Positions 538-29,985 of a DNA stretch of 35,568 nt are shown here, one piece after another. A model generated the notes under the pieces. That model was given only the letters and a program-made list of their open reading frames with translations, made no database searches and was not told where the DNA came from. The DNA comes from a virus. Position 1 is the first letter of the stretch. Each line of letters opens with the position of its first letter. The DNA lies in IMG/VR virus record IMGVR_UViG_3300034066_001370, positions 1-35,568 of that record. One strand, 5' to 3'. Made by a program: the position numbers and the translations under genes.

Positions 538-620
538 CTAGGCGTAGTCGAGGAGAGTTTCTACCTCTCTAATCGTAATTGGAGCTGCAAATGGGGGTTC
601 GAGTCCCTCCGCCTGGGCCA
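538..620 (+). tRNA. atypical tRNA, anticodon uncertain (possibly Arg-UCU)
   Basis: The acceptor stem CTAGGCG/CGCCTGG (one G-U pair), discriminator G, encoded CCA and a T-arm GGGGG-TTCGAGT-CCCTC are clear. The best anticodon arm is GAGAG-TTTCTAC-CTCTC, a perfect five-pair stem with U33 and A37, giving UCU (Arg, AGA). This leaves only eight bases where the D-arm should be and a 23-base variable region. An alternative fold uses GAGG/CCTC as the D-stem and TCTAA/TTGGA as the anticodon stem, with a six-base loop showing CGU (Thr). A functional but atypical tRNA or a decaying one are both possible. Confidence 0.6.
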
Positions 621-640
621 TTTTAGATAAATAGAATTAG

Positions 641-733
641 CCCCGTATAGTTTAATGGTAGAACACCCGCCTTATGATCGGTTTAGCTCTAGATAGGAGC
701 ACAGTCTCGGTTCGACTCCGGGTACGGGTACCA
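641..733 (+). tRNA. atypical tRNA with long variable arm (anticodon possibly UAU, Ile)
   Basis: The acceptor CCCCGTA/TACGGGT pairs except at the terminal C-T. The D-arm GTTT-AATGGTA-GAAC is identical to that of the Gln-UUG tRNA further right. The T-arm is CTCGG-TTCGACT-CCGGG and CCA is encoded. The anticodon loop CTTATGA would show UAU (AUA codons), but only the central CCG/CGG of its stem pairs. A stem-loop GCTCT-AGATA-GGAGC sits between anticodon arm and T-arm like a class II variable arm, which is unusual for an Ile-type tRNA. The identity should be treated as open. Confidence 0.6.
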
Positions 734-746
734 TAATTATGAATAT

Positions 747-831
747 GCCCCCTTGGTGGAATTGGTAGACACAGCGCACTTAAAATGCGCCGGTTTAGGC
801 CGTGCTGGTTCAAGTCCGGCAGGGGGCACCA
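747..831 (+). tRNA. tRNA-Leu (UAA)
   Basis: A canonical class II tRNA: acceptor GCCCCCT/AGGGGGC, discriminator A, encoded CCA. Stem CGCA and loop CTTAAAA give anticodon UAA, and a long variable arm follows as expected for leucine. The T-arm is TGCTGGTTCAAGTCCGGCA. It lies 17 bases upstream of the next protein gene and is probably transcribed with it. Confidence 0.95.
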
Positions 832-848
832 AATTAGCAGGATATATT

Positions 849-1115
849 ATGTCAAATATTGAATTGTGTAAGTGCTCTAAATCTAAGTCAAAGATTAAGG
901 GCGTGCGATGTGGTCCACATGTATACGGCATCCGGTCTTGGCGCGCCAAGACTCAAACTACTCCTGAAACTATGGTAGATGAAGTTTACTGTCTAGATAC
1001 CGTATGTAAAGAACTAAAGAACAAGTGGATTCTTGAGACTATTGTTACGCCTAATAGCGATTTTGTTAGCTCAACATTCGTTACCAAGTATCAAAACGGT
1101 GAAAAGCGTGTCTGA
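849..1115 (+). CDS. hypothetical small protein
   Basis: An 88-residue protein that I do not recognise. The start is set by AGGA seven bases upstream of the ATG; longer readings would run into the tRNA-Leu gene. It has four cysteines in its first half (CKC near residue 7, RCGP near 22, YC near 48), a basic N-terminal third and an acidic centre. Its stop overlaps the GTG start of the dCMP deaminase gene, so the two are probably translationally coupled. No catalytic motif is visible. Confidence 0.75.
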   Translation: MSNIELCKCSKSKSKIKGVRCGPHVYGIRSWRAKTQTTPETMVDEVYCLDTVCKELKNKWILETIVTPNSDFVSSTFVTKYQNGEKRV

Positions 1116-1593
1116 TAAGTGGGACCTGAGATATCTCAGGGTAGCTAAAGAAGTATCGACTTGGTCTAAAGATCCTTCGACACAGGTTGGTGCTGTAACA
1201 GTTAAACCACATTATGGCCAAATTCTTACTCAGGGATATAATGGATTCCCTAGAGCCCTACAAGATTTGCCTGAGCGTCTAGAAGAAAGAATTACAAAGT
1301 ACAAGTATACAATCCATGCCGAAATGAATTGTATCTATAACGCTTCACTTCTAGGTTTGTCATTGTTGAATGCCCATATGTATATCTGGGGTCTTCCGCT
1401 TTGTTCAGAATGTGCTAAAGGTATTATTCAGGCTGGCATAAGCAAAGTCATTGTTTGTTATCCTGAAAAGATTCATGAGCCTTGGATTTCTTCGTGGGAA
1501 ATGTCTAAGAATATGCTTTATGAAGCTGGTTGTACAATTTCAGAATACCGGTATGATTCACAACTAAAAATAACTATGTACAAACCATTCTAA
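1108..1593 (+). CDS. cd: deoxycytidylate (dCMP) deaminase
   Basis: Converts dCMP to dUMP, feeding thymidylate synthesis by the ThyX encoded further right. The zinc site is complete: HAE at residues 70-72 (His ligand and proton-shuttling Glu) and CSEC at 99-102 (two Cys ligands), in a 161-residue protein of normal family length. The start is taken as GTG, giving an N-terminus (V/M)SDKWDLRYLRVAKEVSTW like that of the family; an in-frame GTG three codons upstream is the alternative. It overlaps the preceding gene by eight bases. The 3' end of the gene contains a promoter for the following small genes. Confidence 0.92.
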   Translation: MSDKWDLRYLRVAKEVSTWSKDPSTQVGAVTVKPHYGQILTQGYNGFPRALQDLPERLEERITKYKYTIHAEMNCIYNASLLGLSLLNAHMYIWGLPLCSECAKGIIQAGISKVIVCYPEKIHEPWISSWEMSKNMLYEAGCTISEYRYDSQLKITMYKPF

Positions 1594-1605
1594 TCAGTGT
1601 ATAAT
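1576..1605 (+). promoter_or_regulatory. phage early/middle promoter (TGTAC-N18-TATAAT)
   Basis: ATGTAC, an 18-base spacer ending in GTG, then TATAAT. The same spacing and flanking bases recur at five other sites in the window. The -35 element lies in the last codons of the dCMP deaminase gene, and the expected transcript starts about 40 bases before the small gene at 1645. Confidence 0.75.
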
Positions 1606-1644
1606 GATTAAACAATAATGGGGGTTATTATGTAAAGGTGCAAA

Positions 1645-1818
1645 ATGGATAGAATTTATATTCAAGTTCAAAATAATGGAAATTGGCAGACTGTAAATTC
1701 AACCGATGCGAACGATATGCAAAGGGTACTTATTGAAATGCAGCAGGCCAAGGAGCGGCAGCCGGATCTTAGGGTTCGCGCTGTCGATGAGTCTGATCGT
1801 CTAATTGATATGTTGTAA
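1645..1818 (+). CDS. hypothetical small protein (57 aa)
   Basis: A 57-residue open frame starting MDRIYIQVQNNG and ending DRLIDML. AAGGTG five bases before the ATG is a good ribosome binding site, and the strong promoter just upstream supports expression. The predicted fold is a beta-hairpin (RIYIQVQNNGNWQTV) followed by a helix (DANDMQRVLIEMQQAKER) and another strand (LRVRAVD), a beta-alpha-beta layout common in small phage regulators. No family recognised. It is followed 18 bases later by a small putative DNA-binding protein. Confidence 0.75.
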   Translation: MDRIYIQVQNNGNWQTVNSTDANDMQRVLIEMQQAKERQPDLRVRAVDESDRLIDML

Positions 1819-1836
1819 TAAAAGGATACATATATA

Positions 1837-2106
1837 ATGCGCACTAATTCTAACTCTGCTCGTCTCGCCCGTTCGCTTACTAACGGTGCTCAGTATACCG
1901 AAGCCCAGATTGCTTCGAAGTTCGGAATTGCTAATCCGACTGCTACGATTGCGTATCTTCGTCGTAATGGCTATTCGATCTACTCGAATCGCAAGAATGG
2001 TGACTTCGGCAAGTATACCAAGTACCGTATGGGTTCTGCCCGTAAGGCTGTCGTTGCTGCTGTAGTTAATACGTACGGTTCTCGTTTGACCGGTCTTGCT
2101 GGCTAA
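1837..2106 (+). CDS. small basic helix-turn-helix-like protein
   Basis: An 89-residue basic protein, probably nucleic-acid-binding. Residues about 20-50 read as a winged-helix or helix-turn-helix segment (TEAQIASKFGI followed by TATIAYLRRNGYSIYSNR), and the C-terminal part is rich in Arg, Lys and Ala. AAAGGA lies ten bases before the ATG. Codon choice is strongly biased (cgt, aag, ggt), as in highly expressed phage genes. With the preceding 57-aa gene it forms a short unit bounded by a promoter at 1576 and a probable terminator at 2133. The DNA-binding role is inferred from sequence only. Confidence 0.75.
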   Translation: MRTNSNSARLARSLTNGAQYTEAQIASKFGIANPTATIAYLRRNGYSIYSNRKNGDFGKYTKYRMGSARKAVVAAVVNTYGSRLTGLAG

Positions 2107-2132
2107 AAGCAAGATAAATAATTAACACTTAA

Positions 2133-2175
2133 GCACGCGGGTTGACGAAACTGTAAGACGTGCCTTTCTTTTTTT
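2133..2175 (+). terminator. probable Rho-independent terminator
   Basis: GCACG pairs with CGTGC across a 21-base loop that can form a weak inner GTT/AAC pairing, and is followed directly by CTTTCTTTTTTT. It lies after the small DNA-binding-like gene and before tRNA-Asn. The hairpin is weaker than a classic terminator. Confidence 0.5.
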
Positions 2176-2184
2176 GTAGATTAT

Positions 2185-2260
2185 TCCTAGGTAGCTCAGT
2201 TGGTAGAGCGCCGAGCTGTTAACTCGGTGGTCGCAGGTTCGAGCCCTGCCCTGGGAGCCA
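2185..2260 (+). tRNA. tRNA-Asn (GUU)
   Basis: Acceptor TCCTAGG/CCTGGGA, discriminator G, encoded CCA. D-arm GCTC-AGTTGGTA-GAGC, anticodon arm CCGAG-CTGTTAA-CTCGG (GUU), T-arm GCAGG-TTCGAGC-CCTGC. All stems pair. Confidence 0.95.
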
Positions 2261-2339
2261 TATGTTAGCCGAATACCTGTGGAAGGTCGCAATGTCGGTA
2301 AGGGTTGGTCGAAAACGTGAGACCCGTCCAGTATTTTAT
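2261..2339 (+). other. intergenic segment between tRNAs, possible small RNA
   Basis: No tRNA or credible gene is visible in this 79-base spacer. It can form TGGAAGG/CCGTCCA (six of seven pairs) around a GGTC/GACC hairpin. Its last 20 bases closely match the 3' end of the structured RNA at 15122-15233 (GACCC, then CCAGTATTTTATG here versus CTAGTATTTTATG there). It may be a processed spacer or a shorter relative of that RNA. Confidence 0.35.
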
Positions 2340-2416
2340 GCCCCTGAAGCCTTTAACCGGATGAGGTCGGGTTTTGTAAACCCGGGAAGCAGGTTCGATT
2401 CCTGACTGGGGCACCA
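2340..2416 (+). tRNA. tRNA-Thr (UGU)
   Basis: Acceptor GCCCCTG/CTGGGGC with one T-T mismatch, discriminator A, encoded CCA. D-stem GCCT/AGGT, anticodon arm CGGGT-TTTGTAA-ACCCG (UGU), T-arm GCAGG-TTCGATT-CCTGA with one mismatch at the base. Confidence 0.9.
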
Positions 2417-2432
2417 TTTTGAAGTAGTTTGT

Positions 2433-2509
2433 GTTGGTGGCGGAATATTGGTAGACGCACCGGTTTGTGACTCCGGATCTTGTGGGTTCGAGTCCCACCC
2501 ATCACCCCA
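2433..2509 (+). tRNA. tRNA-His (GUG)
   Basis: The anticodon loop TTGTGAC (GUG) is flanked by CCGG/CCGG. The T-arm GTGGG-TTCGAGT-CCCAC is perfect and CCA is encoded. The extra 5' G opposite C73 expected in histidine tRNAs is present, although the first true acceptor pair is a T-C mismatch. Confidence 0.88.
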
Positions 2510-2520
2510 TTTGGTGTATT

Positions 2521-2697
2521 ATGACAAAAATGTTTGTTGATCGGTTTTTATTTTTAATAGAGTATTGTTCTGGTAAAAGTTTTGATCCTAATATTTTCCA
2601 AATTATGCATGATGAATATGCTAATGCTTGGAAAAAATTGGATCAAGCAGAACAAGGTGAAATTACTGAACGTCTAAACAAAGTTTATTATGTCTGA
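2521..2697 (+). CDS. hypothetical small protein (58 aa)
   Basis: A 58-residue acidic, largely helical protein beginning MTKMFVDRFLFLIEYCSG; not recognised. The ATG is the first that does not run into the tRNA-His gene. Its stop overlaps the ATG of the next gene (ATGTCTGA), indicating coupled translation with the nucleotidyltransferase-like protein and therefore membership in the same short operon with the RNA ligase. AT content is higher than in the genes that follow. Confidence 0.65.
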   Translation: MTKMFVDRFLFLIEYCSGKSFDPNIFQIMHDEYANAWKKLDQAEQGEITERLNKVYYV

Positions 2698-3553
2698 AGT
2701 GAATGTTCCGCGCGGCATGAAGAAGCGCACGATTAACGATATTATCTCTAAGAAGATTGATAAGTGGATCAAAACTGTTGATAATGAGCAGCTCCGAATT
2801 AGAATTCGTCCTGCGGTTATCGTCACTGGCGGTGCGATCACTTCGATGCTTCTAGGTGAGATACCTAACGATTTCGACGTGTACTTTTCTGACATTACTC
2901 TTGCTACTGATCTAGCTCAGTATTATGCAGCAAAGATGACTAACCTTGAAACGTTTGTTATTACTCCCCGTGGTGATAACTCAGGCGTTTGTCTTGAAGT
3001 AAAGCATAAGAACTTTATTACTGCTGATTCTACTTTCAATTTTAACGTTATGACTTCGGTTGATACTGAGAAGTATGAGCCGCTCTTTATCTCTGCAAAT
3101 GCTATTACCCTCTCCGATAAGATCCAGTTGATCTTCAGGTTTGTCGGTGATCCGGACGTTATTCATGAGAACTATGATTTTGTTCATACCAAGAATTATT
3201 GGACAAATGCAAACGGTGTAGTGTTTAATGGTGCGGCTCTAGCTGCAACACTAGCGAAAGAACTAGTATATACCGGATCTAAGTATCCGTTGTGTTCTAT
3301 GTTTAGGATTAAGAAGTTTATCGAGCGTGGTTGGACTATCACTGCCGGTGATATGCTAAAGATTGCTTGGGATATTAATGAGCTAGACCTAAAGAACGTC
3401 GATGTTCTGAAGGAACAGCTTATCGGCGTAGATTACATGTATTTTCTCGACCTTATTCGAAAGATGGAACAAAATAAGGAAGAGAATAATATCTGGGATC
3501 GTGCATATATTATGGACCTGATTGATCTGGTGTTTAGAGGCGAAAATGACTGA
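2690..3553 (+). CDS. phage nucleotidyltransferase-fold protein (class II CCA-adding/poly(A) polymerase-like head)
   Basis: A 287-residue protein of a family conserved in T4-like phages, with a polymerase beta-type nucleotidyltransferase signature. GGAITSMLLG at residues 47-56 matches the GGxVRDxLLG of CCA-adding enzymes, and NDFDVYF (Asp61 and Asp63) gives the metal-binding DxD. The RD of the cellular motif is replaced by TS, so normal CCA addition is not assured. The C-terminal half is helical and has no HD domain. The gene overlaps both neighbours, and the next one encodes an RNA ligase; most surrounding genes are tRNAs. I infer a role in RNA 3'-end modification or repair. The biochemical activity is not established. 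Confidence 0.75.
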   Translation: MSEVNVPRGMKKRTINDIISKKIDKWIKTVDNEQLRIRIRPAVIVTGGAITSMLLGEIPNDFDVYFSDITLATDLAQYYAAKMTNLETFVITPRGDNSGVCLEVKHKNFITADSTFNFNVMTSVDTEKYEPLFISANAITLSDKIQLIFRFVGDPDVIHENYDFVHTKNYWTNANGVVFNGAALAATLAKELVYTGSKYPLCSMFRIKKFIERGWTITAGDMLKIAWDINELDLKNVDVLKEQLIGVDYMYFLDLIRKMEQNKEENNIWDRAYIMDLIDLVFRGEND

Positions 3554-4622
3554 TACTACAAGAAAGCTAGCGTCTATCCGTAGAATTTCTGCTCTAGAGC
3601 CTATTGAAGGAGCAGACCGTATCGAGTGTGCCACAGTAGACGGGTGGAAGCTTGTAACTGCCAAGGTCAACCGTTTTAACGTTGGTGATTTGGTTGTGTA
3701 CTTTGAGATTGATTCGTGGATTCCTTGCAGCATCGCTGCGTTCCTCGATAAGAACCCGAAGACATATGAAGGTGTTGTCGGTGCTCGTCTTCGTACAATC
3801 AAGCTTCGCGGCCAGATTTCTCAGGGCTTGATCCTGCCGATCAAGGATATTCTTGTGTATATGCCGGTTCCAGCTGATGAAAATGAGTTCGTTGAAGGAT
3901 ATGATCTCACTGCTATTCTAGGCATTAAGAAGTGGGAGAAGCCTATTAATGCTAAGCTTGCTGGTATTGTAAAGGGTAATTTCCCGTCATTCATTCCTAA
4001 GACTGACGAGGAACGTGTTCAGAACATGACCAAGGAATTGGCCAAGTGGACTTCTGATATGAACCATTGGGACGGCTCTCCCCGAGAAGTTCCTGATATG
4101 CTTTGGGAAGTTACCGAGAAGCTTGAAGGTTCGTCAATGACTGTATACTGGAATAACGGCCAGTTCGGCGTTTGCTCGCGTAATCTTGAGCTCGTCGAAG
4201 ATGAAACTAATGCATTTTGGAAGGCTGCGCGTAGCTTAAACCTAGAAAGAATCATTTCTAATATTGACATGAACATCGCACTGCAGGGCGAGCTAGTTGG
4301 TCCTGGAGTACAGGGCAACTACTACGGCTTGAGTGAACTTAAGTTCTACATTTATAATATCTATGATATTGATGGTGGTTCTTACGTATCACCTGAAACA
4401 CGTAGGTTTGTTGTTACGAGATGTGGTCTAGATCATGTGCCGGTTCTAGGACTGTACAATCTTCCAGTCAATGCTACGGCTGATGGAATTGTGTCAATGG
4501 CCGAAGGTCGTTCTATTCTCAATAATGCTAAGGAACGTGAAGGCATTGTTTTTAAGCATGTCGAGCGTGATGGACCTTCTTTCAAGGCAATTTCTAACAA
4601 GTATTTGCTAAATAATGACTAA
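3546..4622 (+). CDS. RNA ligase, Rnl5/DraRnl-like
   Basis: A 358-residue ATP-dependent RNA ligase, probably joining 3'-OH and 5'-phosphate ends in nicked RNA duplexes as the Deinococcus DraRnl family does. The N-terminal 110 residues look like the OB-like domain of that family. The nucleotidyltransferase domain shows motif I KLEG (Lys192 as AMP acceptor), a motif III-like region (LQGELVGPG, about 247), motif IV (EGIVFK, about 332) and motif V (FKAISNKYLL). The start is the ATG that overlaps the stop of the preceding gene. With the upstream nucleotidyltransferase-like protein and the surrounding tRNA genes it suggests tRNA repair or maturation after host anticodon-nuclease attack. Confidence 0.87.
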   Translation: MTDTTRKLASIRRISALEPIEGADRIECATVDGWKLVTAKVNRFNVGDLVVYFEIDSWIPCSIAAFLDKNPKTYEGVVGARLRTIKLRGQISQGLILPIKDILVYMPVPADENEFVEGYDLTAILGIKKWEKPINAKLAGIVKGNFPSFIPKTDEERVQNMTKELAKWTSDMNHWDGSPREVPDMLWEVTEKLEGSSMTVYWNNGQFGVCSRNLELVEDETNAFWKAARSLNLERIISNIDMNIALQGELVGPGVQGNYYGLSELKFYIYNIYDIDGGSYVSPETRRFVVTRCGLDHVPVLGLYNLPVNATADGIVSMAEGRSILNNAKEREGIVFKHVERDGPSFKAISNKYLLNND

Positions 4623-4625
4623 ATA

Positions 4626-4660
4626 GTATTGTACACTGGCCCAAAACCAGTGTACAATAC
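4626..4660 (+). promoter_or_regulatory. palindromic promoter-like element (TTGTAC-N18-TACAAT)
   Basis: A perfect 14-bp inverted repeat with a seven-base loop (CCCAAAA). Read as a promoter, it has TTGTAC and, exactly 18 bases later after GTG, TACAAT. That is the architecture of the other promoters with one change in the -10 box. It lies between the RNA ligase and tRNA-Ile. No T-run follows, so a plain terminator is less likely; it may act as promoter, as operator or as an RNA hairpin. Confidence 0.6.
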
Positions 4661-4674
4661 ACTTAATGAATTAA

Positions 4675-4750
4675 GCCAGTATAGCTCAGCTGGGAGAGCA
4701 AGCGGTCGATAACCGCTAGGTCGGAGGTTCGAGCCCTCCTACTGGTACCA
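4675..4750 (+). tRNA. tRNA-Ile (GAU) with C33
   Basis: All four stems are intact: acceptor GCCAGTA/TACTGGT, D-arm GCTC/GAGC, anticodon stem AGCGG/CCGCT, T-stem GGAGG/CCTCC. CCA is encoded. The anticodon loop is TCGATAA, so the anticodon is GAU, but position 33, nearly always U, is C, as if bases 32 and 33 were swapped. Confidence 0.9.
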
Positions 4751-4755
4751 TTTTG

Positions 4756-4867
4756 ACGAGCTCGGAAATCTTGGAAGTTGTACACCTTCACTACGTATCA
4801 GACTCGAACTGATATCTCGTTGTAACGGCTTTATCCAGTTAAGCTACCGTATGATTTCCGAGCTCGT
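4756..4867. repeat. 15-bp perfect inverted repeat enclosing a tRNA-like element
   Basis: ACGAGCTCGGAAATC at 4756-4770 is exactly complementary to 4853-4867; two further G-T or T-G pairs can be added outside. The 82 bases between hold a minus-strand tRNA-like sequence. It lies between tRNA-Ile and the UCA tRNA. A long RNA stem or a mobile-element remnant are both possible. Confidence 0.8.
4788..4853 (-). pseudogene. degenerate tRNA-like element, truncated anticodon arm
   Basis: Read on the minus strand it has a tRNA-like D-arm (GCTT-AACTGGATA-AAGC) and a perfect T-arm (ATCAG-TTCGAGT-CTGAT). The acceptor is imperfect (CATACG against CGTAGTG, with a bulged G). Only 14 bases separate D-arm and T-arm, enough for a three-pair stub CGT-TACA-ACG but not for a normal anticodon arm. 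No CCA is encoded. It is probably a decayed tRNA, or the tRNA-like half of a larger RNA closed by the flanking inverted repeat. Confidence 0.55.
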
Positions 4868-4888
4868 TGAATGTTTGTAGATAAATAA

Positions 4889-4963
4889 TCTTGTGTAGCT
4901 CAACTGGTTAGAGCGCAGTCTTCAAAACTGACGATCGGGGTTCGAGCCCTCGCACAGGAACCA
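4889..4963 (+). tRNA. tRNA with UCA anticodon (putative opal suppressor)
   Basis: Acceptor TCTTGTG/CACAGGA, discriminator A, encoded CCA, D-arm GCTC-AACTGGTTA-GAGC, T-arm CGGGG-TTCGAGC-CCTCG. The anticodon loop CTTCAAA gives UCA, which reads the stop codon UGA. Its stem CAGT/ACTG has only four pairs. A separate Trp-CCA tRNA exists and the genes here stop normally at UGA, so the element is best called a suppressor candidate. Its length rules out selenocysteine tRNA. Confidence 0.75.
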
Positions 4964-5072
4964 AATTACTTAACCTAGGAAATCTAACAATGCTTTGATG
5001 TATTCGTGCCCCTCCTTGTTGACTTTGGCGTGCTAATTTCAACAACTGTGATTTATAACGGGGAGATATTAA
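4964..5072 (+). promoter_or_regulatory. leader region of the PTH2-like gene
   Basis: This 109-base non-coding segment contains an inverted repeat TTGTTGA/TCAACAA (5016-5022 and 5039-5045) with a 16-base loop, and ends in a strong GGGGAG ribosome binding site eight bases before the ATG. I see no tRNA or promoter consensus in it. It may form a leader hairpin. Confidence 0.35.
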
Positions 5073-5789
5073 ATGTTTTGTATTAATTTTGACGACTTCA
5101 TTAAGCAGCACAAGGAAAAGGCTGCGGCTAAGACTCTTACATCTGGTGATATGGCAATGTACCATATCCGGCGTGCTTATCACGCCAAGTCTAACTATAA
5201 GATTGATCTAGCCAAGATTTTTCTTACATCGGCCTTTACGCCGATTTCGTCTAAGACTGAGTTGGCCAACGGTGCAAAGCCACACGACGGTGTTCTGCGC
5301 GCTTTGAATATGGTTTTATTCCAGCTGCGTCGTTGGAATCTAAACGCTAAACCTTCTGATGAAGAAAGGCAAATGGTTAATGTCCTTGACGATATGGCTC
5401 AAGAACTACGTAACCATTTCGGCTCAGCTGAGCCGGTATATCGTGATCCTAAGGCTAATACAGTTTATGCTTATATCTTTACTAAGCAGGATATGTCTAG
5501 AGAGCAGCAGTTGGTTCAGACCGCGCACTGTACGATGGTTCTTGGTCAGGCAGTGGCTGCTACGGAGTACGATGCTAAGAAGCTTCATTTCACTGTTTTC
5601 GGGGTTCCGGATGGTGGTGCGCTAGAGGCTAAGAAGAATTTTCTAGAGGCCCGTGGAGTGCAGACCGTGCACTTTATCGAACCTGATATGGGAAATGTTA
5701 TGACTTCATTCGCGTGTATGCCGATGAAGAAGTCTAAGGCCACGAAGGATAATTTGTTTGTGGATAATACACTACTAACCATGGTGTAA
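5073..5789 (+). CDS. PTH2-like domain protein
   Basis: A 238-residue protein. Residues about 131-215 resemble peptidyl-tRNA hydrolase 2: YIFTKQDMS, then REQQLVQTAHCTMVLG (compare the family's gQ-AAQ-aHA helix), LHFTVFGVPD, EAKKNFLEARGV and a strand ending FIEPD. The bacterial-archaeal enzyme releases tRNA from stalled peptidyl-tRNA. The usual glycine and lysine of the first helix are changed (SREQQ), so the reaction is unproven. The N-terminal 110 residues are helical with no recognised domain. It lies within the tRNA cluster, between the UCA tRNA and tRNA-Pro. Family assignment is by motif memory only. Confidence 0.6.
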   Translation: MFCINFDDFIKQHKEKAAAKTLTSGDMAMYHIRRAYHAKSNYKIDLAKIFLTSAFTPISSKTELANGAKPHDGVLRALNMVLFQLRRWNLNAKPSDEERQMVNVLDDMAQELRNHFGSAEPVYRDPKANTVYAYIFTKQDMSREQQLVQTAHCTMVLGQAVAATEYDAKKLHFTVFGVPDGGALEAKKNFLEARGVQTVHFIEPDMGNVMTSFACMPMKKSKATKDNLFVDNTLLTMV

Positions 5790-5797
5790 AAAAGTTA

Positions 5798-5870
5798 CAG
5801 GGCGTAGCTCAACTGGTGGAGTGCCGGCTTTGGAAGCTGGAGGTTGTGAGTTCGAGTCCCACCGTCCTGA
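5798..5870 (+). tRNA. tRNA-Pro (UGG), CCA not encoded
   Basis: Acceptor CAGGGCG/CGTCCTG, D-arm GCTC-AACTGGTG-GAGT, anticodon arm CCGGC-TTTGGAA-GCTGG (UGG), T-arm GTGAG-TTCGAGT-CCCAC with one A-C mismatch. After discriminator A the DNA reads CAT, not CCA. It is the only well-formed tRNA here that needs CCA addition. A strong terminator follows four bases later. Confidence 0.92.
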
Positions 5871-5874
5871 CATT

Positions 5875-5907
5875 AGGGGTCCACAATAAGTGGACCCCTT
5901 TCTATAT
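5875..5907 (+). terminator. Rho-independent terminator
   Basis: A perfect ten-pair hairpin AGGGGTCCAC-AATAA-GTGGACCCCT followed by TTCTATAT. It closes the transcript carrying the PTH2-like gene and tRNA-Pro. Confidence 0.88.
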
Positions 5908-5917
5908 AGATAGTATC

Positions 5918-6332
5918 ATGAAGAAATACATATTATTTTTTTGTTACGTTAATAATTCTTTGCACGGTTGTGTTAAACCAAGCAGTTGAATTTGTTGACT
6001 TAAGCCCTCTTCAGACAGCTGCACCCCTGCAGCCATCTGGGCCGCTCCAGGCGGCTTTGCCGCTGCAGATGGCTGCACCACCATCTATCCCGGATAGCGA
6101 CCGGTGGCTAACGGCATCTTTGGAATGGTCTGATAATCTAGAAGCATATAATGATTTTTTCAAGCTGCTTCCTCAAACAAACAGTGATTTACAAGATTTA
6201 GAGTTTTCGTATACCCCTCAGTTCTTGGAAGCTGCTATAAATAAAATCATTAATAGTCCGCTTCCTTCACTGGCACGACTTCCGCCGGTGGTATACAACC
6301 CCACAATTCAAAGCCAAGCGTCACCTCGATAG
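5918..6332 (+). CDS. secreted or membrane-anchored Pro-rich protein, frame interrupted at a T7 run
   Basis: The ATG at 5918 opens MKKYILFF and then, in frame, stops after 23 codons. Skipping one T in the seven-T run at 5936-5942 joins it to a frame giving MKKYILFF-VTLIILCTVVLNQA, a convincing signal peptide or N-terminal membrane segment. This frame continues for 129 codons to the TAG at 6330. The body has four PLQxxx repeats and a C-terminal region with SLEWSDNLEAYNDFF. Without the shift the first start is GTG at 5970, which would cut off the hydrophobic segment. Transcriptional slippage, +1 frameshifting, a mutation or a homopolymer error all fit. Function unknown; its neighbour is the endolysin. 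Confidence 0.6.
6006..6077 (+). repeat. four 18-bp tandem repeats encoding PLQxxx
   Basis: Four in-frame units encode PLQTAA, PLQPSG, PLQAAL and PLQMAA. The segment is richer in GC than the AT-rich sequence on both sides. It probably forms an extended Pro-rich linker after the signal segment. Confidence 0.8.
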
Positions 6333-6406
6333 GTTCGTAGCACAATGGCTAGTGCGTCGGTCTCCAAAACTGTAAGATCCGGGTTCGATTCCTGGCGAGC
6401 CTGCCA
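6331..6406 (+). tRNA. tRNA-Trp (CCA)
   Basis: Acceptor AGGTTCG/CGAGCCT, discriminator G, encoded CCA. D-arm GCAC-AATGGCTA-GTGC, anticodon loop CTCCAAA (CCA), T-arm CCGGG-TTCGATT-CCTGG. Its 5' end overlaps the stop codon of the preceding gene by two bases. Confidence 0.93.
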
Positions 6407-6409
6407 TCC

Positions 6410-6417
6410 TATAAATA
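6410..6417 (+). promoter_or_regulatory. T4-type late promoter box (TATAAATA)
   Basis: An exact TATAAATA 17 bases upstream of the endolysin ATG, directly after tRNA-Trp. Late timing suits a lysis gene. The T4 late consensus is established; its use in this phage is inferred. Confidence 0.65.
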
Positions 6418-6433
6418 AAAAAGATTTATAGAA

Positions 6434-7168
6434 ATGGTGCCCAAAATGATTACACAAACAATCCTAAGAAAACTTTGCCCGCAGTCAAAAACATCTATCA
6501 TTAAAGATGTTGCTGATTACTTCGTTGATTATGCGCCAAAGTATGGTGTTATTTCTGATTTGCGTGTATGCCATTTCATGGCTCAGGCTGGCCATGAAAC
6601 AGATAATTTTCAAACATTAGAAGAATATGCTTCTGGCTCTGGGTATGAGGGCAGATCAGATCTTGGAAACGTGTATCAAGGCGACGGTGTACGTTATAAG
6701 GGTCGTGGAATATTCCAGCTTACCGGCCGTAGCAATTATATCACTTTCGGTAACCTGATTGGTGTTGATCTAGTCAATAATCCAGAAATGGCTGAAGATC
6801 CTAAGATTTCAGTACAGACTGCCCTGGAGTACTGGAAAAATCGTGATCTGAATAAATGGGCTGATCGAGATGATATTGAAACTATTACTAAGCGTATCAA
6901 TGGCGGCCTAAACGGATATCCACATCGTAAAGAACTATACGCTAGAATGAAGGTTCTTATTCTAGAACCGGCTGCCATGGCGTGGGGTGATAAAGGCGAT
7001 GAAGTAATGGAACTTCAGAAGAGACTTAAGACTATTGGTTATCTTCTAGGTACTGACGGTGACTTTGGCCCTGGAACTGAGTCTGTTGTAAAGAGATTCC
7101 AGGCGGCTAAATTCTTGCCAATGACTGGCATTGTTGATTCTAAGACCATGGAATTAATTTATGGCTAA
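6434..7168 (+). CDS. endolysin: GH19 lysozyme/chitinase-like domain plus peptidoglycan-binding domain
   Basis: A 244-residue cell-wall hydrolase for host lysis. The N-terminal domain (to about residue 175) is of glycoside hydrolase family 19 type: HFMAQAGHETDNFQTLEE contains His54-Glu55 and a second acidic pair, followed by RYKGRGIFQLTGRSNY and the late motif TKRINGG. The C-terminal 60 residues (WGDKGDEVMELQKRLKTIGY to the end) form a PG_binding_1 repeat. No signal peptide is seen, so export depends on the holin encoded next, which it overlaps by eight bases. ATG 6446, four codons downstream, is an alternative start. Confidence 0.93.
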   Translation: MVPKMITQTILRKLCPQSKTSIIKDVADYFVDYAPKYGVISDLRVCHFMAQAGHETDNFQTLEEYASGSGYEGRSDLGNVYQGDGVRYKGRGIFQLTGRSNYITFGNLIGVDLVNNPEMAEDPKISVQTALEYWKNRDLNKWADRDDIETITKRINGGLNGYPHRKELYARMKVLILEPAAMAWGDKGDEVMELQKRLKTIGYLLGTDGDFGPGTESVVKRFQAAKFLPMTGIVDSKTMELIYG

Positions 7169-7733
7169 TCAATGGATTCTTGACAAAGAAGCCGAATCCA
7201 TTGTTGCAACAGTAGCACCTCAGTTACTGTTAACGCTTAATTCTGCATTGTACATGTTGGCTATACCTAGTTTGTGTTCAGCGATGCTGGGTCGTGAAAA
7301 CGGTACAATTGATGAATTAAACCATGCTATCAAGCATGCTACTGCTGTTAAACTTCAGAAGCTCAAGGTAATTGAAGCTGATATTATGGTTCAGCTTAAA
7401 CAACTAGACGTCGATCTTAAGATGATCGAAGCAGCTGATTCCGAAAACGCCCGCAGAAGAAAAATGGTAGCTGAGGATTGGATTCCGAAGTTCATTGCAG
7501 TTACAACAGTGCTCGCATTTTTCATTTATATTGGTCTTGTTTCATTTTATCCATTTACGGTACCACCTAATATGGAGTTCGTCAATCTAGCTATCGGTTG
7601 GATCGGTGGTATTGCTACTTCTGTAATTTCTTATTATTTCGGTTCTTCGATTGGTTCAACACAAAAGAATAGAATGATGGCGCAAATGCAGAAAATACAT
7701 GATGACGATAACAGCAGAAATAATCATCAATAA
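7161..7733 (+). CDS. putative holin (3-TM holin family)
   Basis: A 190-residue membrane protein that would permeabilise the inner membrane and release the endolysin. Two clear membrane segments lie at about 111-133 (KFIAVTTVLAFFIYIGLVSF) and 140-163 (VNLAIGWIGGIATSVISYYF), with a third hydrophobic stretch near residues 15-45. A charged coiled-coil-like region lies between. The end motif YYFGSSIGSTQKN is typical of phage and gene-transfer-agent holins of the three-TM type. It overlaps the endolysin gene, the classic lysis-cassette arrangement. Confidence 0.8.
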   Translation: MANQWILDKEAESIVATVAPQLLLTLNSALYMLAIPSLCSAMLGRENGTIDELNHAIKHATAVKLQKLKVIEADIMVQLKQLDVDLKMIEAADSENARRRKMVAEDWIPKFIAVTTVLAFFIYIGLVSFYPFTVPPNMEFVNLAIGWIGGIATSVISYYFGSSIGSTQKNRMMAQMQKIHDDDNSRNNHQ

Positions 7734-7735
7734 TC

Positions 7736-8170
7736 ATGATATTTGAAATACGCCGTGCTGTTAAAACAGACACTTACGAGATCATGCATGTAGAAACAGA
7801 GTGTTTCAAAGAAAATGCATTTTCTAAGTCGTCTATCAATTACTACATTAAACACAAAAGAATATTCGTAGCCATTGATGAATTCAATGGAATTGCCGGG
7901 TATCTTTGTGTATCACCGGTATCTAAATCTGGCCGGCAGCGAATCTATTCATTAGCGGTAAGAGAAAGATATAGAGGTCATGGTATTGCAAAGCGATTAA
8001 TGGAAATCGCAGAGTGCAATACCGAAGCCACGGAGTTATATCTAGAAGTTGATTCACTAAACAAGTCAGCCATATTTCTATATCAAAAGCTAGGATATGA
8101 AGTGTTTGGCATATACGAAGACTATTATGGTGATCATAAAGATGCCTTGCGGATGCAAAAAATAGTTTAA
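7736..8170 (+). CDS. GNAT-family N-acetyltransferase (RimI-like)
   Basis: A 144-residue acetyl-CoA-dependent acyltransferase. The GNAT core is present: IYSLAVRERYRGHGIAKRLM supplies strand beta4 and the pyrophosphate-binding R/Q-x-x-G-x-G/A loop, followed by LYLEVDSLNKSAIFLYQKLGYE (beta5 to alpha4) and a final strand. The pattern is closest to RimI-type protein N-terminal acetyltransferases, so the substrate may be a host or phage protein. It begins three bases after the holin stop and is likely co-transcribed with the lysis genes. Confidence 0.87.
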   Translation: MIFEIRRAVKTDTYEIMHVETECFKENAFSKSSINYYIKHKRIFVAIDEFNGIAGYLCVSPVSKSGRQRIYSLAVRERYRGHGIAKRLMEIAECNTEATELYLEVDSLNKSAIFLYQKLGYEVFGIYEDYYGDHKDALRMQKIV

Positions 8171-8174
8171 ATTA

Positions 8175-8204
8175 GTGTACATTTGTTAACCATTGGTGTA
8201 TAAT
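8175..8204 (+). promoter_or_regulatory. phage early/middle promoter (TGTAC-N18-TATAAT)
   Basis: GTGTAC, an 18-base spacer ending in GTG, then TATAAT, matching the other sites. It lies just after the acetyltransferase gene and drives the 61-residue gene at 8230 and probably the two Gln tRNAs. Confidence 0.75.
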
Positions 8205-8229
8205 TAGTAATGTACCAATGGAGTGGAAA

Positions 8230-8415
8230 ATGGCTAGCATCAAGGTAAGTTACATGACCAAGGATTTTGACGCGGATCAGGCGAACTCGTACCCGGTTCA
8301 GCACGTTAAGAGCTTTTCCAATATGACAGATGTGTTCCGCTTTATTTCACGCGTGAAGATTAATCCTAATCTTGAAGGCCGGATTGTATTTGGGAAGCCC
8401 ATTATCCAAGGTTAA
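8230..8415 (+). CDS. hypothetical small protein (61 aa)
   Basis: A 61-residue protein beginning MASIKVSYMTKDFDADQ, not recognised. The start is the second in-frame ATG because GGAG lies six bases before it, whereas the first ATG (8218) lies within that ribosome binding site. It is preceded by a strong promoter and followed by tRNA-Gln genes. Predicted beta-alpha-beta with VFRFISRVK as the helix. Codon choice is like that of the highly expressed genes. Confidence 0.75.
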   Translation: MASIKVSYMTKDFDADQANSYPVQHVKSFSNMTDVFRFISRVKINPNLEGRIVFGKPIIQG

Positions 8416-8421
8416 TATTTT

Positions 8422-8497
8422 TGGGGAGTAGCTCAATTGGTAGAGCAGAGGATTCTGAATCCTAAGGTTGCGGGTTCGATCCCTGCCTCCCCAGCCA
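8422..8497 (+). tRNA. tRNA-Gln (CUG)
   Basis: Acceptor TGGGGAG/CTCCCCA, discriminator G, encoded CCA, D-arm GCTC-AATTGGTA-GAGC, anticodon arm GAGGA-TTCTGAA-TCCTA (CUG), T-arm GCGGG-TTCGATC-CCTGC. Confidence 0.93.
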
Positions 8498-8502
8498 ATT
8501 TT

Positions 8503-8576
8503 GCCGGTTTAGTTTAATGGTAGAACTTCTGGTTTTGAGTCAGACTGTCCGGGTTCGATTCCTGGCACCGGTGCCA
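8503..8576 (+). tRNA. tRNA-Gln (UUG)
   Basis: Acceptor GCCGGTT/CACCGGT (last pair mismatched), discriminator G, encoded CCA, D-arm GTTT-AATGGTA-GAAC, anticodon arm TCTGG-TTTTGAG-TCAGA (UUG), T-arm CCGGG-TTCGATT-CCTGG. Its CCA abuts the stop codon of the convergent o-spanin gene. Confidence 0.92.
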
Positions 8577-27725: not shown

Positions 27726-28154
27726 ATGGAATGGACATACCTCAACGATAAATTCCCATACGCAATGATAGGCGAAAACTTTGGTTTCGTCTATGTCATT
27801 ACCAACACTGTTACCGATAGAAAATATCTTGGTAAGAAGTGGTTCTGGTCTTCTAGAAAGAAAAAGGTAAAAGGGAAGAAACGCGCAGTACGACTTAAGT
27901 TAGAGTCTGACTGGGAATCATATTACGGATCATCGGCTGAGTTAACAGCTGACGTTGAAAAATATGGTAAGGATAAGTTTAGAAGAGAGATAATCCACTT
28001 ATGCAAAACAAAAGGCGACGCTTCGTATTATGAAGCAAAGTACCAATTTGAATGTGGTGTGCTAGAATCCGATCAATGGTATAATGCTTGGATTATTGTT
28101 CGGGTGCGCAAGAATCATCTGACTTCTTATAAAAATCGCCAGACTTCTTCTTAA
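27726..28154 (+). CDS. GIY-YIG-like nuclease-domain protein
   Basis: A 142-residue protein of a conserved phage group. GFVYVITNTVTDRKYLGKKW is the GIY-YIG core (here VYV...YLG), followed by the conserved Arg of FRREIIHL and the Glu of YYEAKYQFE, and a strand SYYGSS. The group is common in T4-like phages and related to GIY-YIG endonucleases; whether it is a homing nuclease or a domesticated one is unknown. Its 3' end overlaps the convergent HNH gene by 62 bases. Confidence 0.82.
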   Translation: MEWTYLNDKFPYAMIGENFGFVYVITNTVTDRKYLGKKWFWSSRKKKVKGKKRAVRLKLESDWESYYGSSAELTADVEKYGKDKFRREIIHLCKTKGDASYYEAKYQFECGVLESDQWYNAWIIVRVRKNHLTSYKNRQTSS

Positions 28155-28656
28155 CACGTGGCGGCATTCGTGAAACGTACCACCATCCTTCTGGTGGAAG
28201 TTTACCAGTCTTTTTAATTCTCTTGGTTATAAAGCCATTAGATATGATTCTGCATCCAGCTGGAGAAGGTGGTGTAGTAGTTCCTATTCTTCCTCTTCTC
28301 CAACCCATGTTATCAATGAATATCTGAGCTTCATCTTTGTCCATGAACTTATTGATGATATCATTAGTTATCCAGACTTTACCCTGTAGGCCATTTAGCC
28401 CACCAAGTATTTCGATCTTATGATTTTTCATAAGAATCTTTCTAGAAATACGCCTATATTTTGCACAATAAATACAACGTAGGCTAATATTGTCAAAATT
28501 GTTGTTTACATTATCACCGTCTATGTGGTATAATACCAGTGTCGACGGTACTATTTTAGTGGAAATGACTTGTTTAATCCAGTAACCATGGTTACAGATT
28601 TCACAATAGCATCCATTCTCAAATGCAACCAGCCATTTTAATTGTTCGTTATTCAT
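28093..28656 (-). CDS. HNH endonuclease-like protein (probable homing endonuclease)
   Basis: A 187-residue protein on the minus strand. CEIC (Cys18, Cys21) and a later LRCIYC form a zinc site around the HNH core LVLYHIDGDNVNNNFDNISL, the typical homing-endonuclease arrangement. The C-terminal half has a DNA-binding-like segment (GLQGKVWITNDIINKFM). Base composition is AT-rich compared with nrdB. Opposite strand, lone position and nearness to nrd genes agree with an inserted selfish element, perhaps cutting a related phage at this locus. Confidence 0.83.
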   Translation of the reverse strand: MNNEQLKWLVAFENGCYCEICNHGYWIKQVISTKIVPSTLVLYHIDGDNVNNNFDNISLRCIYCAKYRRISRKILMKNHKIEILGGLNGLQGKVWITNDIINKFMDKDEAQIFIDNMGWRRGRIGTTTPPSPAGCRIISNGFITKRIKKTGKLPPEGWWYVSRMPPRVKKKSGDFYKKSDDSCAPEQ

Positions 28657-28680
28657 AGTTTATTTATTAAGGAAAGTGAC

Positions 28681-28773
28681 ATGCCGCATCCGTCAAAGAA
28701 TCGCCCGCGCAAGGGTCGCCGTAAGATTGGTTCAAATAAGCGCCGTAAGGCCAGAGCGAACCGTAAGAAGTAA
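28681..28773 (+). CDS. arginine/lysine-rich microprotein (30 aa)
   Basis: Thirty residues, 15 of them Arg or Lys: it starts MPHPSKNRPRKGRRKIG and ends KARANRKK. A GGAAAGTGAC stretch just upstream of the ATG gives a ribosome binding site. It resembles protamine-like or ribosomal-protein-like short basic peptides and may bind nucleic acid. The stop shares its last base with the next ATG (TAATG), so it is coupled with the following membrane microprotein. Confidence 0.65.
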   Translation: MPHPSKNRPRKGRRKIGSNKRRKARANRKK

Positions 28774-28859
28774 TGGAATTTTTGTTAAACCCGGTTATTT
28801 GGATAGGATTATACTACTTATTTTTGTGTGTAATCATTACCAATTATCCTAATAAATAG
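28773..28859 (+). CDS. single-TM membrane microprotein (28 aa)
   Basis: Twenty-eight residues, mostly hydrophobic (LLNPVIWIGLYYLFLCVIIT), predicted to cross the membrane once. The start overlaps the stop of the basic microprotein. No ribosome binding site is obvious, so expression probably depends on coupling. Function unknown; small holin-like or signalling peptides are the closest idea. Confidence 0.5.
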   Translation: MEFLLNPVIWIGLYYLFLCVIITNYPNK

Positions 28860-28867
28860 ATTAGAAA

Positions 28868-28933
28868 ATGGAATACATATTTATCTCGATAGTGATCGTT
28901 ACGTTGTTAATTTGGTTATGGATTAAATCATAA
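28868..28933 (+). CDS. single-TM membrane microprotein (21 aa)
   Basis: Twenty-one residues (MEYIFISIVIVTLLIWLWIK and Ser), almost all hydrophobic: a bare transmembrane helix. It follows the 28-residue membrane microprotein by eight bases. No strong ribosome binding site is seen (TTAGAAA). Tandem single-TM micropeptides are suggestive, but translation is unproven. Confidence 0.4.
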   Translation: MEYIFISIVIVTLLIWLWIKS

Positions 28934-28948
28934 AATAGAAGTTGTGTC

Positions 28949-29428
28949 ATGCATAAGAAAATGGATATTGAAAGCGTAAAACAGTTCATCTCAGAACAGT
29001 CGCTATCAACAAAAATTTACCTTGGATCAGATTCAGAACGCTATAATCGTAAGGGATTGTGGTACGCTGATTACGCACTTGTAGTGGTTGTTCATTATGA
29101 TGGTTGCCGCGGCGCTAAGCTGTTTGGTGAGGTCATTACCGAACGTGATTATGATCAGAACAAGCACAAGCCACGTTTCCGTCTTATGAACGAGGTTTAC
29201 AAGGTTTCTGGGCTGTATCTACAGCTGGCAGAGTCTATTGGTGACCGTCATTTTGAAATTCATCTTGATATTAACTCAGATGAAAAGCAGGGTTCTAACT
29301 GTGTTATGGCCCAGGCTATTGGTTATATCCGTGCAACATGTAATGTAATTCCAATGGTTAAACCTAACGCATTCGCAGCTTCATACGGTGCGGATAGATT
29401 TAAGAGCATCATGGGGGCTAAACACTAA
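28949..29428 (+). CDS. RNase H-like fold protein (DUF458/YkuK-type)
   Basis: A 159-residue protein with an RNase H-like pattern: YLGSDSERYNRKG gives the first acidic strand, ADYALVVVVHY the next strands, and FEIHLDINSDEKQGSN the later acidic strand with the DUF458 hallmark. The family is known as YkuK in Bacillus, of uncertain nuclease activity. A second in-frame ATG lies four codons on. It overlaps the glutaredoxin start by one base, making an nrd-linked operon. Confidence 0.75.
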   Translation: MHKKMDIESVKQFISEQSLSTKIYLGSDSERYNRKGLWYADYALVVVVHYDGCRGAKLFGEVITERDYDQNKHKPRFRLMNEVYKVSGLYLQLAESIGDRHFEIHLDINSDEKQGSNCVMAQAIGYIRATCNVIPMVKPNAFAASYGADRFKSIMGAKH

Positions 29429-29703: not shown

Positions 29704-29985
29704 ATGGCTATTGCAACGTATAAGAGAGACGATATTCTTGCTGACCTTCGCGAGAACATCGTTGAGGTAACCTTCAATAAGGTTTCTGATGGTCAAACTA
29801 GGATTATGAAGTGCACACTTCGGCCGGAGCTTCTTCCTAAGTCGTATATGTCTGAGCAAGAGCAGGAAACTACTTTCCACCGTGAAAATCCTGATACTAT
29901 TGCTGCCTGGGATATTGAAAAGAACGGTTGGCGTTCATTCAAAGTACCTACGGTCACGTACGTACAAATTGTAGATCATCTGTAA
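29704..29985 (+). CDS. small conserved phage protein (DUF2693-type)
   Basis: A 93-residue beta-rich protein. DILADLRENIVEVTFNKVSD, then RIMKCTLRPELLPK, and the end AAWDIEKNGWRSFKVPTV fit a phage family usually annotated as DUF2693 or WYL-like SH3 domain, thought to bind nucleic acid or protein. The role here is unknown. It lies between glutaredoxin and the glycosyltransferase. Confidence 0.75.
   Translation: MAIATYKRDDILADLRENIVEVTFNKVSDGQTRIMKCTLRPELLPKSYMSEQEQETTFHRENPDTIAAWDIEKNGWRSFKVPTVTYVQIVDHL

Follow-up and report, generated by a model that had tools for sequence, protein, structure and literature searches.

A near-invariant polybasic microprotein gene of uncultivated T4-like phages, in part linked to tRNA genes, and two hydrophobic candidate ORFs behind it

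When three very short open reading frames (ORFs) follow one another in phage DNA, it has to be asked which of them are genes and what their products could do. The DNA considered here, referred to as the window, is the whole of a virus record of 35,568 bases that carries T4-like genes for replication and nucleotide metabolism; its ORFs were named from the sequence, and its gene families include NrdB, glutaredoxin-like, RNase H-like and gp31.1-like proteins. A sequence-only reading had taken the three ORFs for tiny genes of the kind usually missed, one polybasic and two membrane-spanning, joined by TAATG coupling and perhaps acting on the host membrane or nucleoid early in infection. As read from the sequence, all three are present, in the following setting:

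27726..28154, + strand: GIY-YIG-like protein, the usual upstream neighbour (phrog_447, 1.7e-41, and four homing-endonuclease PHROGs)
28093..28656, - strand: HNH endonuclease-like ORF between the GIY gene and the polybasic gene (weak HNH PHROG matches, best 1.7e-4)
28669..28673, + strand: Shine-Dalgarno sequence AAGGA of the polybasic ORF, 7 nt 5' of the ATG
28681..28773, + strand: polybasic microprotein gene (ORF 1), 30 aa, MPHPSKNRPRKGRRKIGSNKRRKARANRKK; family of at least 119 distinct genes
28773..28859, + strand: 28-aa hydrophobic ORF (ORF 2), MEFLLNPVIWIGLYYLFLCVIITNYPNK, a possible membrane microprotein
28868..28933, + strand: 21-aa hydrophobic ORF (ORF 3), MEYIFISIVIVTLLIWLWIKS, a candidate
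28949..29428, + strand: RNase H-like / DUF458-type protein, 159 aa, the downstream neighbour (phrog_11311, 4e-51)

The product of ORF 1 has K or R at 15 of its 30 residues. At 28771-28775 its stop overlaps the start of ORF 2 in the sequence TAATG, while ORF 3 begins 8 nt past the stop of ORF 2 and has no evident GGAG-type site; the proposed coupling thus holds for the first of the two junctions and fails for the second. Of the three, only ORF 1 is a demonstrated gene.

The polybasic family

ORF 1 belongs to what is here defined as the KNRPRKGRRK microprotein family, that is, proteins with the core K-N-R-P-R-K-G-R-R-K-[IVL]-G-S-x-K-R near the start, followed by a short basic tail. The near-invariant core usually takes the form KNRPRKGRRK[I/V]GSxKR, and the window protein carries it at residues 6-21. 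At least 119 distinct genes, on contigs of uncultivated T4-like phages, make up the family, and its members, among the matches listed, are 27-35 aa long with 45-61% Lys+Arg (mean 52%), lack Cys altogether and in 111 of 119 cases lack acidic residues, an SD-like 4-mer lying 5' of 114 of 118 of them.

The first scan of viral_contigs with the core pattern returned at least 119 stretches, corresponding to 118 ORFs and 93 distinct proteins. Against selection bias, two further scans were run, each freeing half of the core; 136 places fit all three patterns, three fit one relaxed pattern only and two the other only, among the matches listed. Since relaxation yielded only these five extra variants, the search pattern did not create the invariance of the core. 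Because the order of loci is similar in all three scans, they sample one and the same part of the collection, and their counts hold among the matches listed. Twelve residues are constant in the 119 distinct DNA sequences listed (K6, P9, R10, K11, G12, R13, R14, K15, G17, S18, K20 and R21); as R10-K11, G17 and K20-R21 were demanded by every or nearly every pattern, their constancy is partly imposed, the remaining ones having been free in at least one scan. A pattern-free sample of 110 loci picked by their neighbour genes, representing few distinct phages, contained 16 carriers, all 16 with the exact core, and a profile run against the loci yielded no convincing divergent form.

Selection on the protein is plain from the Nei-Gojobori proportions in 110 sequences among the matches listed: pS is 0.73 and pN 0.07 over core codons 6-18, as compared with 0.70 and 0.32 over codons 2-5. 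The 13-residue basic core is under strong purifying selection, with synonymous change near saturation, and the short basic tail varies, down to its last residues. Conservation of this kind in at least 119 distinct genes is far more than chance would produce for the frame. Loss of the frame in relatives, which the sequence-only reading had named as fatal to its proposal, is therefore not what is observed for ORF 1, whose frame is kept. Phage proteins of fewer than 100 aa are a recognised class, reviewed in PMC11323111, and ORF 1 falls among them by length (27-35 aa in the family, well under 100 codons) and by protein-level conservation (pS 0.73 versus pN 0.07). As far as the available text of that review goes, the polybasic gene resembles these proteins in being tiny, missed by annotation and conserved at the protein level, and differs in belonging to a family with no match in PHROGs, Pfam or NCBIfam.

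All 12 long contigs that fit the pattern contain a single copy of the gene, and the core occurs in 2 of 19 long contigs chosen via neighbour genes and in none of seven whole named phage records. A tblastn search of 50,697 phage records with the 30-mer gave nothing at E 10. The family was recovered in a local control run under default filtering against a database of comparable size (235 alignments for two family queries), so this absence is meaningful for members with a conserved front half. Searches of PHROGs, Pfam and NCBIfam with 28 members matched no family, a profile search of PDB sequences gave no match, and two blastn searches with the DNA of relatives returned nothing relevant. Among 84,980 species genomes a single match turned up, in a betaproteobacterial metagenome-assembled genome (MAG); the matching stretch is phage DNA that carries NrdB, GIY and RNase H-like genes, and it gives a weak hint at the host. 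When presence of the polybasic gene (39 of 55 rows, the other 16 lacking it) is mapped on a tree built from the RNase H-like gene, five changes are counted, four of them forced by starred branches; the distribution is patchy, several of the contigs without the gene being fragments. By their description in the available text of PMC4360716, the Far-T4 phages, uncultivated aquatic relatives of T4, are a likely kind of carrier.

The claim of a real tiny gene that is usually missed is accordingly strongly supported for the polybasic protein. It has been overlooked by standard annotation and by family databases and is absent from all the catalogued phage records that were searched, and a literature search retrieved no paper printing any of five core strings of the family. 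Bulk predictions of small proteins in phage genomes were reportedly made by Fremin et al. in 2022, and the family may sit within that catalogue. A protein this short with a near-invariant core over such diversity is rare.

Gene neighbourhood and expression signals

The polybasic gene sits in a nucleotide-metabolism and replication region and reads with it: homologues of window genes, the only neighbours scored, lie on its strand in 456 cases and on the opposite strand in five, among the loci listed. The commonest pairs of neighbours are GIY with RNase H-like (29 of 119 loci listed) and gp31.1-like with exonuclease-like (20 of 119), and a recognised neighbour is absent in 15 of 119; in a second set of carriers the gene lies directly behind the gp31.1-like gene. 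The window's own relative of the latter, at 29704-29985 on the + strand, is distant from T4 gp31.1 and is labelled 'tail fiber' in many records. Labels also diverge for the gene at 27726-28154, where the phrog_447 label 'NAD synthetase' stands beside four homing-endonuclease matches; by its sequence the product looks like a GIY-YIG protein, and the label is probably misleading in many cyanophage records. The HNH-like ORF at 28093-28656 runs against all its neighbours on the - strand, sharing 62 bases with the 3' end of the GIY gene, and its homologues are the nearest recognised gene upstream of the polybasic gene in loci L001, L005, L006 and L008.

The gene is also associated with tRNA genes. 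ARAGORN predicted 110 tRNAs in the 971 kb of the 119 carrier loci listed. A same-strand tRNA lies within 30 nt on either side of the polybasic gene in 25 of these loci (mean of 1.0 and maximum of 5 in 300 trials of random placement) and within 200 nt in 29 (random mean 5.9, maximum 13), counting 16 loci with one downstream and 22 with one upstream at the latter distance; tRNAs flank the gene on both sides in nine loci, and 90 of the 119 have none within 200 nt. The spacing is tight: among the loci listed, a tRNA-Gly(TCC) starts 6-14 nt past the polybasic stop in 13, and a tRNA-Leu or tRNA-Met ends 13-29 nt ahead of the ATG in 15. In the near relatives L005-L008, tRNA-Gly follows the polybasic stop by 6-8 nt, where the window has the hydrophobic ORFs instead. 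The window's 12 predicted tRNAs, which do not include tRNA-Gly, all lie far off at 538-8576; one of them (4889-4963, + strand) has the anticodon TCA, is labelled SeC by ARAGORN and could read UGA.

As controls, a tRNA within 200 nt downstream was found for none of 29 NrdB, none of 67 glutaredoxin, one of 68 gp31.1-like and none of 38 exonuclease-like genes, and for 22 of 81 GIY and 19 of 44 RNase H-like genes. Because the last two share the linkage, it may stem from a tRNA island where small genes accumulate, the main alternative reading of it; as the loci are related, the counts are not independent events. In cultured phages, too, the RNase H-like/DUF458 gene adjoins tRNA genes, namely in DLP6 and DSS3_MAL1 (loci L231 and L253). 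Relatives of its product are annotated 'ribonuclease' or DUF458, and in DSS3_MAL1 the gene lies next to that for peptidyl-tRNA hydrolase.

With regard to expression, 15 of the 115 relatives among the loci listed have a near-consensus σ70 promoter (at least 11 of 12) no more than 180 nt ahead of the gene, compared with 0.6 expected from mononucleotide shuffling and 4 of 115 downstream. For some relatives, these predicted promoters support the use of the host polymerase for transcription; they do not date expression in the window phage. One of the 15 is of the window's own type (L001), and there the σ70-like site at 28505-28534 was rejected as promoter support, since it coincides with codons of the opposite-strand HNH motif and also occurs in L004, where the polybasic gene is absent at the same place. 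Expression early in infection has partial support, from the relatives, the site in the window itself having been discounted. A T4-type late promoter, TATAAATA, occurs in one of 118 upstream regions among the loci listed, which lends no support to late expression from promoters of this type.

The two hydrophobic ORFs

Over 17 residues, the hydropathy of ORFs 2 and 3 reaches 2.17 and 2.65, and both contain a hydrophobic segment of membrane length, which is the basis for any putative membrane action. That they are genuine membrane microproteins working together with the polybasic protein is nevertheless unlikely. The TAATG overlap is in keeping with such a pair, as is the rarity of the arrangement: dinucleotide shuffling of 28771-28948 (n=5000) produced at least one such hydrophobic ATG ORF of 20-60 aa in 2.6% of cases and two in none. 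Across the whole window, on both strands, 17 ATG ORFs of that length, ORFs 2 and 3 included, have such a hydropathy. Scans of viral_contigs for DNA encoding the exact peptides found each in three contigs only, whose DNA is identical to the window over 28641-28960; all other relatives listed have the polybasic gene without ORFs 2 and 3.

A membrane microprotein of 57-63 aa beginning MWLE is common to L005 (from about 2692) and L006 (from about 2832; z 14.8), and it lies between the polybasic and RNase H-like genes, the same interval that ORFs 2 and 3 occupy. ORF 2 aligns with the L006 protein over 17 residues, eight of them identical (z 6.9 with the ORF shuffled and 5.8 with the L006 segment shuffled, in one of several post-hoc comparisons), but fails to align with the L005 homologue of that protein (z 0.5 and -0.2), and DNA similarity to L006 is limited to short stretches; ORF 3 aligns with neither (z 0.0 to 1.5). 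The resemblance of ORF 2 to the L006 protein is thus a weak lead. At best, the two ORFs would be lineage-specific passengers in a variable slot, which in close relatives is filled by tRNA-Gly and at times also by a different membrane microprotein.

Candidate roles of the polybasic peptide

The AlphaFold2 prediction on 28 members (mean pLDDT 77, pTM 0.29) has a short helix at 4-7, a helix at 18-29 and no globular fold. The protein appears to have no hydrophobic core, and a 30-residue basic peptide of this kind would be expected to become ordered on nucleic acid. Given its charge, its fixed core, the lack of a fold and the linkage to tRNA genes, the peptide most likely binds RNA in translation or tRNA supply. 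We consider it on balance probable that this genuine single-copy phage gene encodes a nucleic-acid-binding, most likely RNA-binding, peptide serving the take-over of translation or RNA. In the proposed mechanism, the invariant KNRPRKGRRKIGS arm and the basic helix behind it would bind a conserved RNA surface (tRNA, a tRNA precursor or ribosomal RNA); in many relatives the gene and phage tRNAs would be transcribed together, and phage translation or tRNA supply would benefit during infection. Action on RNA is a step we infer from loci, about a fifth of those listed, in which the gene directly adjoins a tRNA gene or lies between two.

The peptide would bind DNA too, and the nucleoid, proposed earlier as its target, is possible, the tRNA linkage favouring RNA. 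A protamine- or histone-like peptide, whose job would be to compact or displace the DNA of the host or to coat that of the phage, would account for the mean K+R of 52%, the near absence of acidic residues and the location in a replication and nucleotide-metabolism region, yet 13 near-invariant positions with a fixed I/V-G-S break exceed what mere charge would need, and the tRNA linkage also speaks against it; we regard it as rather unlikely. AT-hooks have a G-R-P core with basic flanks, and this core is present in none of 28 aligned members, so the protein is not of the AT-hook type. Less probable still is an arginine-rich-motif antitermination or RNA-polymerase-directed factor that would act on a structured phage or host transcript in the manner of lambda N: size and arginine-rich arm suit the general kind, and the predicted σ70 promoters upstream in 15 of 115 relatives listed would fit, but the downstream genes vary widely and Rfam finds nothing but tRNAs in the window. 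Arginine-rich-motif peptides such as lambda N, Tat and Rev specifically bind a structured RNA through a short arginine-rich segment, and what links the polybasic family to them is composition. A leader or arrest peptide, controlling the next gene through ribosome stalling or translational coupling, is very improbable even though the polybasic stop overlaps the start of the following ORF in 32 of 112 relatives listed, the window type included, for conservation is amino-terminal and central while the last residues vary, and the next genes are unrelated between loci, with a tRNA following in some.

For RNA binding in the service of translation, the nearest comparisons are ribosomal. The polybasic protein is short and Lys/Arg-rich like the small basic ribosomal proteins bL34, bL36 and bS21 and the ribosome-associated Sra, and association with RNA, as they have it, is proposed for it; mimicry of them was rejected on sequence, none scoring above composition (z 0.03, 0.22, 0.52 and -0.69), and the best of the 36 E. 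coli proteins compared reached z 1.2. PhiKZ014 is an early, ribosome-targeting phage protein with a demonstrated 50S subunit contact (PMC10914614). In the available text of that report, the likeness lies in early action on the translation machinery, which is proposed for the polybasic peptide as well, and the difference in the 50S contact, a feature of PhiKZ014, the peptide being known here from its sequence. A literature search on small, basic proteins of phages with a link to tRNA listed nothing in point.

More tentatively, the family may be an undescribed group of RNA-binding microproteins, co-transcribed with phage tRNAs, that protect, mature or deliver tRNA or remodel the host ribosome, acting on a very conserved target. 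If this were true, that target would be so conserved that a 13-residue core has barely changed despite near-saturated synonymous change. The link to tRNA genes offers a concrete and cheap hypothesis for these phages, in which the peptide would bind RNA in the take-over of translation.
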